Shown: piece after piece, positions 59,314 to 61,996 of the stretch
Layout of the letters: each line of letters begins with the position of its first letter
Position numbering within the stretch: the stretch's first letter is position 1
NCBI RefSeq assembly: GCF_022539405.1
Contig: NZ_CP054394.1
Span: forward strand, 2,240,501-2,304,500
Reading direction: 5' to 3'
Origin: Natranaerofaba carboxydovora
GTDB lineage: Bacteria; Bacillota; Natranaerobiia; Natranaerobiales; Natranaerofabaceae
DNA: 64,000 nt
The notes under the pieces: generated by a model
Databases searched by the model: none
The model's input: only the letters and a program-made list of their open reading frames with translations
What the model was told of the DNA's origin: nothing
Program-made: the position numbers and the translations under genes

Positions 59314-59916
59314 TTAATAGTTATCTTCTACCTTCCATTCTTTCCATACCTTTCCTGCTAAGTCTGGACGGGGTTTTAAAGTCTTTTTGCCAGGTTCCCA
59401 ACCTGAAGGAGTTACTTCCCCTGTTTTTTCTATATGTTGATATGCTTTTACTTGACGAAGTAGTTCTGAAACGTTTCGACCAACTTCTGGTGTCAAAACC
59501 TCCATTGCCCTAAGTTTACCTTCTGGATTTATGAGAAAACGACCTCTTATATTCACTCCACCTTCTTCACTATATACCCCATACGCACGTCCGATTTTGC
59601 CATTGGAATCAGACATCATAGGAAAAGGAATCCCACCTTCAACCATCTTAGATAGTTCCACTTCCTGCCAAATCTTATGGCTGAAGTTACTATCAGTACT
59701 AATAGCTACAACATCTACCCCTAATTCTTGCAGTTCATCATACTTAGCAGCAACTGCTGCTATCTCTGTTGGTCATACAAATGTAAAATCACCAGGATAA
59801 AAACAAAGAACCAACCATTTTCCTTCATAATCAGACATTTTAACAGTTTTAATCTCATTTTTCACTAAAGCTTTCCCTTCAAATTCAGGTGCTTTCTTAC
59901 CCACAACAGCGCTCAT
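59314..59916 (-). CDS. Selenocysteine-containing peroxiredoxin (AhpC/Prx family, in-frame UGA at the peroxidatic position)
   Basis: 200 residues read through one TGA. ATG 59916 follows CTAAAGGAGG. The frame reads [31 protein letters not shown], then TGA (59775-59773, codon 48), then [51 protein letters not shown]. In all Prx of this type the residue after FTFV and before PTE is the catalytic Cys, so the TGA encodes selenocysteine rather than stop. A SECIS-like hairpin follows at the right distance. The resolving Cys of AhpC (GEVCP) is Thr169 here (GEVTP); the only other Cys is Cys38. Reduces peroxides in the cytoplasm, with an external thiol as reductant. Confidence 0.92.
59745..59762 (-). 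promoter_or_regulatory. Bacterial SECIS-like hairpin after the Sec UGA
   Basis: In the mRNA, UAGCAGC-AGUU-GCUGCUA forms a perfect 7-bp stem with a four-base loop whose second base is G followed by U. The loop begins 18 bases after the UGA codon. Both properties fit the bacterial SECIS model (apical loop G in the first two bases, 16-37 bases from UGA), recognised by SelB. Confidence 0.8.
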
Positions 59917-60112: not shown

Positions 60113-60141
60113 TTGAAACTTTCTCTCCTGCGTGGTATAAT
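60113..60141 (+). promoter_or_regulatory. Sigma-A-type promoter of the FMN-binding lipoprotein gene
   Basis: TTGAAA (60113-60118), 17 bases, TATAAT (60136-60141), 41 bases upstream of the GTG start. The 266-base gap from the peroxiredoxin start to this gene otherwise shows no feature. Confidence 0.75.
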
Positions 60142-60182
60142 ATCTTAGGATTAAAAACAATAAAATATGAGGGGGAAGACAG

Positions 60183-61949
60183 GTGAAAAAATTTTTACTT
60201 ATTATCGGGCTTGTTTTAGTTGTAACTTTCACAATTTTGGGTTGTGAGCAAGGAGATGTTGACACACCAGTAGCAGACCCGCCAGAAACTATGGATGGTA
60301 CATTTGTAGGTTATTCAGAGGAGAGTAGAGGGTTTACAAAAGCAGAAGTAGTTATTGAAGACAGCAAAATAGTAGGAGTAACATTAAAAGAATTTGATAA
60401 TAGAGGATTAGTTAAAGATGTTGACTTTGAGTATTTGAATGAAGGCCGTATTGAAAGTTGGGGAGAGCGCGTAGATAATTCAGAAGAGTTTTTCGAAGAA
60501 TTCGAAAGTCATGCGGCAATGACTGAAGAATTAGAAAGAAGGTTCGTCGAAACAAATGCAGCTGACATTGACGGAATTACTGGGGCCACAAGTACATCTG
60601 ATCAAGCTATTGAAGCTGTTGAGATGGCTTTAGCAAAAGCAGAGGGCGAGACCTTATTTGACGGCAGATTTATGGGTATTTCTGATGACGACTCAAGAAG
60701 TTGGGGAATAGCAATTGTTGAAGTAGAAGATGGAAATATAGTAGACGTTGAGCTAGAAGAAGTTGCAAAAGATGACCCGTATGGTTTAAAAAGAGATTCA
60801 GACCTTAAAGACGAAGAATACAGTTATGAAGAATTCCATGAAGCAAAAGAAGAAATGCCAGGAAGATTTGTAGGTGCTAATGGGCCTGAAGTAGACATTT
60901 ATACAGGTGCCACGGGAAGCTCAGAACAGTGGAAACAAGCAGTAGCAAGAGCTCTTGCAAAAGCCGGGGTATATGAAAGAACAGTAGGAGCCTCAGAGGA
61001 AAGCAGAGGATTTACTAAAGCAGATATAATACTTGATGGTGACGAATTTGTAAACATTGGTTTAACAGAATACACTAATGACGGCCTAAGAAAAGATGTA
61101 GACTTTGAATATTTAGATGAAGGCCGCATCGAAAGCTGGAGCGAGCGTATAGATGTTGATTTATTCGAAGAATATGATAGCCACGGGGCAATGGTTTCAG
61201 AACTAGAGAATAGATTCTTGGAATCAAGCTCTAGTGATGTAGATGGTATAACAGGCGCAACTAGCACATCAGACCAGGCGAAAGAAGCGGTAGCAAATGC
61301 CCTTTCTGAAGGGCCTTTTGATGGAATTTTCATGGGAATTTCCCCAATAAATATGAGAGATACCTGGGGAATTGCTATTGTAACCTTTGAAGATAGCAAT
61401 ATAGTAGAAGTTGAGTTAAATGAAGCAAGATTAGATAATGAAGGCGAAGTAGAAGTAAAAGATGAAGACTATGATTGGGATGAATTCCATGAAGCAAAAG
61501 AAGAAATGCCAGAAAGATTTATAAATGCTAATGGGTCAGAAGTTGATATCTATACTGGTGCTACAGGTAGTTCTAATCTTTGGATGGCTGCTGTAAGAGA
61601 CGCTATGAATAACGCAAAGATAGAAGCAAAAGTTTCTGAGATACCACAAGAAATTGAAGAAACTGAAGAAGAAGCTGAAGAAGTTACTGACGAAGAAAGC
61701 TTCACCGGCTCTGGAGAAGGTTTCAAAAGCACAATAGAAGTTAAAGTTACTATGGTTGGAGATGAAATTGTGAACGTTGAAGTATTAAACCAGGATGAAA
61801 CACCTTCATATTGGGAAGATGGTGTGAAAACTGTAGATGACATTCTTGAGGCAGGAAGCACTGATGTAGATACGGAAACTGGAGCAACAGCCTCAAGCGA
61901 AGGTATTGTAGAAGCTGTTAATGATGCTGTAGGGCATATCATTAACTAA
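60183..61949 (+). CDS. Lipoprotein with five tandem FMN-binding domains
   Basis: 588 residues from GTG 60183 after GAGGGGGAAG. Signal LLIIGLVLVVTFTILGC with lipid-Cys 21. Five FMN_bind (NqrC/RnfG-like) domains follow, each ending in the flavin-attachment type motif: DGITGATSTSD at 130, DIYTGATGSSE at 238, DGITGATSTSD at 354, DIYTGATGSSN at 455, DTETGATASSE at 563. Domains 1 and 3 and domains 2 and 4 are close copies (shared GFTKA..., RIESW, EFHEAKEEMP), so an A-B pair was duplicated and a fifth domain added after a Glu-rich linker. In NqrC/RnfG the motif Thr carries FMN through ApbE; up to five flavins are thus possible. Likely extracytoplasmic electron carrier. Confidence 0.88.
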   Translation: MKKFLLIIGLVLVVTFTILGCEQGDVDTPVADPPETMDGTFVGYSEESRGFTKAEVVIEDSKIVGVTLKEFDNRGLVKDVDFEYLNEGRIESWGERVDNSEEFFEEFESHAAMTEELERRFVETNAADIDGITGATSTSDQAIEAVEMALAKAEGETLFDGRFMGISDDDSRSWGIAIVEVEDGNIVDVELEEVAKDDPYGLKRDSDLKDEEYSYEEFHEAKEEMPGRFVGANGPEVDIYTGATGSSEQWKQAVARALAKAGVYERTVGASEESRGFTKADIILDGDEFVNIGLTEYTNDGLRKDVDFEYLDEGRIESWSERIDVDLFEEYDSHGAMVSELENRFLESSSSDVDGITGATSTSDQAKEAVANALSEGPFDGIFMGISPINMRDTWGIAIVTFEDSNIVEVELNEARLDNEGEVEVKDEDYDWDEFHEAKEEMPERFINANGSEVDIYTGATGSSNLWMAAVRDAMNNAKIEAKVSEIPQEIEETEEEAEEVTDEESFTGSGEGFKSTIEVKVTMVGDEIVNVEVLNQDETPSYWEDGVKTVDDILEAGSTDVDTETGATASSEGIVEAVNDAVGHIIN

Positions 61950-61970: not shown

Positions 61971-61996
61971 AAAAGAGGCCATTTTAGGCCTCTTTT
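61971..61996. terminator. Bidirectional terminator between the FMN lipoprotein and PHP genes
   Basis: AAAAGAGGCC-ATTTTA-GGCCTCTTTT is a perfect inverted repeat with A and T tracts on both sides, placed between two convergent genes (21 bases after one stop, 8 before the other). Confidence 0.9.

Follow-up and report, generated by a model that had tools for sequence, protein, structure and literature searches.

A lipoprotein with five predicted covalent FMN sites in two paired units and a tethered domain in Natranaerofaba carboxydovora

Natranaerofaba carboxydovora is described as an extremely haloalkaliphilic CO-using acetogen of the class Natranaerobiia (Sorokin et al., 2021, as cited in PMC12835891). 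The window studied here is a 64,000 bp stretch of its genome (NZ_CP054394.1, positions 2,240,501 to 2,304,500), which consists of a single contig of 3.26 Mb (G000:C1). The class is represented in this work by three genomes: this one and its relatives G001 and G002. An open reading frame with a GTG start and 588 codons, judged to be a genuine gene, codes for a protein with five FMN_bind domains (Table 1). It is under purifying selection (dN 0.29-0.32 vs. dS above 1). The promoter-like site in front of the gene and the terminator-like hairpin behind it point to a monocistronic unit. The product begins with MKKFLLIIGLVLVVTFTILGC, which we judged by eye to be a lipoprotein signal ending in the lipobox TILG-C21; a lipobox ahead of the domains had already been noted in a preliminary description of this locus. 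The neighbouring genes encode a peroxiredoxin and BioY-like, malic-enzyme-like, histidinol-phosphatase-like and IlvD-like proteins (all but the peroxiredoxin assigned by eye). No dedicated redox partner was found in an operon with the five-FMN_bind gene or adjoining it, and the neighbourhood is not conserved at the G002 relatives.

Table 1. Features of the five-FMN_bind locus (window coordinates).
Feature	Position	Strand	Basis
Promoter-like site TTGAAA-17-TATAAT with extended TG, putative	60113..60141	+	consensus scan, 11/12 matches
Ribosome-binding site AGGGGGAA, 5 nt upstream of start	60170..60177	+	sequence
Five-FMN_bind lipoprotein, 588 aa	60183..61949	+	ORF and PF04205 x5
Lipoprotein signal peptide to lipidated Cys21 (TILG-C), predicted	60183..60245	+	sequence; helix 2-19 in model
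Domain A1 (pair 1, N-terminal half; FMN-bind2 type)	60291..60638	+	boundaries; pLDDT mostly >90 except insertion loop
Predicted FMN acceptor Thr136 (DGITGAT)	60588..60590	+	motif
Domain B1 (pair 1, C-terminal half; FMN-bind2 type)	60648..60971	+	boundaries, model
31-bp exact direct repeat, copy 1 (EFHEAKEEMP)	60831..60861	+	sequence comparison
Predicted FMN acceptor Thr244 (DIYTGAT)	60912..60914	+	motif
Domain A2 (pair 2, N-terminal half)	60972..61310	+	boundaries, model
Predicted FMN acceptor Thr360 (DGITGAT)	61260..61262	+	motif
Domain B2 (pair 2, C-terminal half)	61311..61640	+	boundaries, model
31-bp exact direct repeat, copy 2	61482..61512	+	sequence comparison
Predicted FMN acceptor Thr461 (DIYTGAT)	61563..61565	+	motif
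Acidic flexible linker before domain C	61641..61694	+	pLDDT <50 at aa 487-504
Domain C (FMN-bind1 type; CbFMN4 domain 1 relative, PDB 8p2b)	61695..61946	+	phmmer E 1.5e-11; best Pfam stretch 513-583
Predicted FMN acceptor Thr569 (DTETGAT)	61887..61889	+	motif
Intrinsic terminator-like hairpin, 10 pairs, then T-rich tail	61971..61996	+	sequence scan

Pfam finds PF04205 (FMN_bind) five times in the product (whole-protein E-value 1e-39, 135.5 bits against a cut-off of 22). As each of the five domains exceeds the curated cut-off in the genome profile search, the match is far beyond chance. The five D-x-x-T-G-A-T motifs start at residues 130, 238, 354, 455 and 563, and their spacing of 108, 116, 101 and 108 residues agrees with the five TGAT/S motifs at intervals of about 101-116 residues reported earlier. 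The ApbE substrate motif, [S/T]GA[S/T] with an upstream Asp, is complete in 5/5 domains. Its several FMN_bind domains, together with predicted export and lipidation, place the protein among the predicted multi-flavinylated proteins as delimited by Meheust et al. (2021). It stays below the cut-offs of NF041941 (PplA; 34.7 vs. 325 bits), rnfG (39.3 vs. 102 bits) and nqrC (15.9 vs. 144 bits).

The domain order A-B-A-B-C given in the preliminary description is correct, but A and B, 33-48% identical, act as halves of one unit. Home-built sequence profiles separate A/B domains from C. We surveyed 34 proteins with A/B domains from the window genome, its relatives, Halanaerobiaceae MAGs and other Bacillota. 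All of them have an even number of these domains (34/34), two in 27 proteins and four in the remaining 7, and an odd number occurs in none. FMN-bind2 domains are described in the accessible text of Huang et al. (2024; PMC11334425) as often present in even numbers (two or four) and predicted to pack sheet to sheet into two-flavin units. A and B are probably the two halves of one paired unit of FMN-bind2 type; C belongs to a different subtype, FMN-bind1. Compared with C, the A domain (some 115 aa) and the B domain (some 108 aa) have insertions, but both are shorter than the roughly 160 aa published for FMN-bind2.

The AlphaFold2 model of A1-B1 is one compact body (mean pLDDT 89, pTM 0.85). In the full-length model, about 4 residues separate the last helix of B1 from the first strand of A2, and domain C, whose best solved relative is domain 1 of CbFMN4, is poorly modelled. 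FMN-binding proteins head the fold matches: 3o6u (Z 12.9, rmsd 2.9 over 113), 8p2a (Z 12.3, rmsd 2.4 over 89) and 8p2b (Z 9.2, rmsd 2.4 over 82). Matches to IscU and lipoate ligase (Z 6-8) are at background level for the aligner used and were discarded. The even A/B number, the pair predicted as one body and the insertions relative to FMN-bind1 all recall FMN-bind2 proteins; the extra FMN-bind1 fifth domain on a flexible linker sets our protein apart, such a mixture not being described in the accessible part of that source.

We took the flavin pocket of 8p2b (PMC10339131) as a reference. Aligned with its sequence, all five domains have an aromatic residue at or next to the flavin-stacking position (F, W, F, W, F) and keep a hydroxyl two residues past the acceptor Thr. 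Judging from this alignment, the flavin-holding residues are kept in character across the five domains. In 8p2b, the Thr of an E-T-P segment contacts flavin N5 (PMC10339131). Domain C retains this segment and the A/B domains carry a nearly invariant Lys around the same place, which could shift the flavin potential. These N5 surroundings bear on the idea that the protein is a redox buffer or store, i.e., a flavin pool taking up and releasing up to ten electrons without any directed path. The three flavins of SaFMN3 are reported to show a single redox potential (PMC10339131, text available in part), so no internal gradient would be required, and the flexible tether of domain C in the model also suits a buffer. 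However, two subtypes with different predicted N5 surroundings (ETP Thr in C, Lys in A/B) suggest that the flavins differ in potential and do not form a uniform pool, and we regard a simple buffer as quite improbable.

The A-B pair was previously thought to have been duplicated recently, on the strength of near-identical DNA stretches. The quoted stretch is real, but this 31-bp tract is the only exact run of at least 15 bp between the two halves, which are 66% identical in DNA overall. At the protein level A1 and A2 are 61% and B1 and B2 60% identical. The same codon is used at 33 of the identical A1/A2 residues (31.3 predicted from codon usage) and at 41 in B (30.2 predicted), the latter excess including the 31-bp tract. 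NG86 dS values of 3.7 (A) and 1.2 (B) put synonymous sites near saturation. Moreover, the A-B-A-B arrangement is present in two proteins of G002, which belongs to another family of the class (55% and 53% identity). We therefore reject a recent duplication. A truly recent one can be seen elsewhere: among two neighbouring genes of another genome (L107:5839-8973, G341), each encoding four A/B domains, one has nearly identical pairs.

In the domain tree (C-domain fragments that aligned onto B1 instead of C were left out of the alignment) B1 clusters with the B1 domains of the two G002 proteins (support 86/95), so the duplication of the pair is older than the split. A1 and A2 of the window genome group together (98/98), in discordance with the B tree, and carry a shared insertion of 4 residues that G002 lacks. 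Their grouping and common insertion suggest that the A domains may have been homogenised later by gene conversion. The C domain joined A-B-A-B separately: one of the A-B-A-B proteins of G002 has it at the N-terminus, with an intervening PF07833 domain, and upstream of the gene for the other there is a separate gene that codes for a C-type lipoprotein of 120 aa.

Acceptor motifs are less well kept in some paralogues. In the A-B lipoproteins L089:5309-6139 (G000:C1 1829 kb) and L043 (G001) both are degenerate (TEAT, TDAT, SEAT), and such proteins may carry no covalent flavin. One of two motifs is degenerate in the paralogues at 2411 kb in G000 and 1139 kb in G002, and both B motifs of the 730-aa G002 protein are TEAT. 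Flavin in every domain is therefore not obligatory for the family, and the five-FMN_bind protein itself could be flavinylated in part, the remaining domains serving as structural halves of pseudo-dimers. Since all five motifs and the pocket positions are complete in it, we consider this unlikely.

A search for ApbE, suggested earlier as a check on the covalent flavins, found one in the window's genome, a lipoprotein (PF02424, E-value 8e-77). The missing ApbE gene that would have spoken against them is thus not observed. The cluster containing it has the order rnfC-D-G-E-A-B, Mrp-type antiporter genes, apbE and a gene for a PF07456 (Hpre_diP_synt_I) membrane protein; the last two thus follow the Mrp-type genes directly behind the rnf operon (L087:8629-16733, G000:C1 ~429-437 kb). 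The PF07456 protein also has a weak ECF-transporter match. As apbE is about 1.4 Mb away from the five-FMN_bind gene on the circular chromosome, co-location lends no support to ApbE acting on this protein. Nevertheless, the lipoprotein signal, five intact motifs, conserved pocket residues and an ApbE in the genome make five covalent FMN and a role as an extracytosolic electron carrier, as first proposed, a prediction well supported by sequence.

RnfG of the window's genome has two FMN_bind domains. G002 has an A-B lipoprotein gene next to rnfC and divergent from it, and the RnfG encoded there carries three FMN_bind domains. Besides this three-domain RnfG (at 1142 kb), G002 encodes an RnfG-like protein of 580 aa that carries five FMN_bind domains (L060, G002:C2 ~675.6-677.3 kb), which may mark a second Rnf complex. 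The window's genome has eight genes with FMN_bind domains, none of them with an open frame large enough for a flavin-fused fumarate reductase. One of the eight, at 1760 kb, codes for a membrane protein in which FMN_bind and 4Fe-4S domains are combined. It lies in a cluster of succinyl-CoA-synthetase-like, fumarate-reductase-like and fumarase-like genes with a transporter and Fe-S membrane proteins (L093:678-11314, G000:C1 ~1755-1765 kb), and its product may be the flavinylated anchor that holds a fumarate or succinate enzyme to the membrane.

The only LPXTG protein (PF00746) detected in G000, and likewise in G002, is a C-type flavoprotein encoded beside a sortase gene. These wall-anchored (LPETG) proteins with a single FMN_bind domain are located at L092:6632-7876 (G000:C1 ~2026.6-2027.9 kb) and L097:5436-6838 (G002). 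Domain C of the five-FMN_bind protein groups with the wall flavoproteins in the tree (81/82) and is nearest to the G002 LPXTG protein (63% identity). No sortase or LPXTG match was obtained in G001, the third genome of the class, and a literature search for a sortase-anchored FMN_bind protein yielded nothing relevant.

We propose that the five-FMN_bind protein is an ApbE-flavinylated, membrane-anchored electron carrier relaying electrons toward wall or external acceptors (probability about 0.6). It would be exported, lipidated at Cys21 and then supplied by the single ApbE with FMN at Thr136, 244, 360, 461 and 569, presumably in all five sites. A1-B1 and A2-B2 would each form a compact two-flavin body, the two bodies being joined almost without a linker, with the C domain hanging on an acidic flexible tether and probably making the acceptor contact. 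The donor would be a membrane-surface flavoprotein in its reduced state, the best candidate being Rnf, whose RnfG has an extra FMN_bind domain. From there electrons may pass along the flavins to acceptors in the wall or outside the cell. A search of the available literature found no published electron acceptors for the organism, and a scan for haem proteins with a CXXCH-like DNA pattern proved too unspecific (232 hits vs. 98 in the control). Given the A-B gene adjoining rnfC in G002 and the kinship of domain C to the wall flavoproteins, a relay from Rnf to the wall is the most economical idea.

A stronger version has electrons crossing the wall from multi-flavin RnfG through the five-flavin lipoprotein and the LPXTG single-flavin protein to extracellular acceptors. 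It draws on the wall proteins just described, both with an adjoining sortase, and on the affinity of domain C to them, but the tree support is moderate, the genes are scattered, and co-occurrence in two genomes, with G001 having no sortase or LPXTG match, is weak statistics; we therefore hold it as a tentative possibility. More broadly, and rather doubtfully, we speculate that haloalkaliphilic Natranaerobiia-like bacteria have an all-flavin path across the envelope, built of multi-flavin RnfG, two rigid two-flavin bodies with a tethered flavin domain and the sole detected LPXTG flavoprotein, in which C, being kin to the wall protein, would dock with the same partners.

The number of domains, presented earlier as unusual, is not new: the catalogue of Meheust et al. 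(2021; PMC8238504) has 2081 proteins with multiple FMN_bind domains from 1530 genomes, particularly of Gram-positives and with up to 13 sites, and multi-flavinylated proteins were proposed there to act like multi-haem cytochromes, as long-distance electron carriers. The five-FMN_bind protein belongs to this described class and is a good new example of it, being extracytosolic, with more than one FMN_bind domain, ApbE motifs and a number of sites within the known range; unlike the class, its gene stands alone, outside any flavinylation gene cluster. SaFMN3 and CbFMN4, with three and four predicted sites, were produced and carry covalent FMN according to the accessible text of Tong et al. (2023; PMC10339131; PDB 8p2a, 8p2b). 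Our protein resembles them in having several covalent FMN on Thr (predicted here) and in domain C, homologous to CbFMN4 domain 1, but they are strings of near-identical domains (>80%) on flexible linkers, while the five domains here are diverged, of two subtypes, and four of them paired. PplA (NF041941) of the Gram-positive Listeria is likewise an FMN_bind lipoprotein, and its modifying enzyme is ApbE-like, but the sequence match is weak and PplA has fewer domains. Multi-flavin RnfG, already noted in PMC8238504, has extra C-type FMN_bind domains and occurs in the same genomes; it is a membrane subunit of a complex and not a lipoprotein.

Particular to the five-FMN_bind protein are the two FMN-bind2 pairs combined with one FMN-bind1 domain that is kin to a wall-anchored flavoprotein. 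Multi-flavinylated proteins are numerous and their function is unproven. This one is useful, as it unites both subtypes and five intact sites with a single ApbE, a two-flavin RnfG and one detected sortase-anchored flavoprotein, so that a chain of donor, relay and acceptor could be tested with few parts.

The head-to-head arrangement with the peroxiredoxin gene could also suggest a surface oxidant defence, in which the five-FMN_bind protein would supply electrons and be co-regulated with the divergent peroxiredoxin; reduced SaFMN3 is reported to be able to use dioxygen (PMC10339131, accessible text). We find this very improbable, as the peroxiredoxin shows no export signal in the sequence inspected while the five-FMN_bind protein is extracytosolic, and the genes of the G002 relatives are not arranged in this way. 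The peroxiredoxin gene itself (AhpC-TSA and 1-cysPrx_C domains; window 59314-59916, minus strand) has an in-frame TGA exactly where the codon for the peroxidatic Cys is expected (FTFV-TGA-PTEI). The genome contains a tRNA-Sec match over the Rfam cut-off (70.3 bits), and the product is probably a selenocysteine peroxiredoxin.
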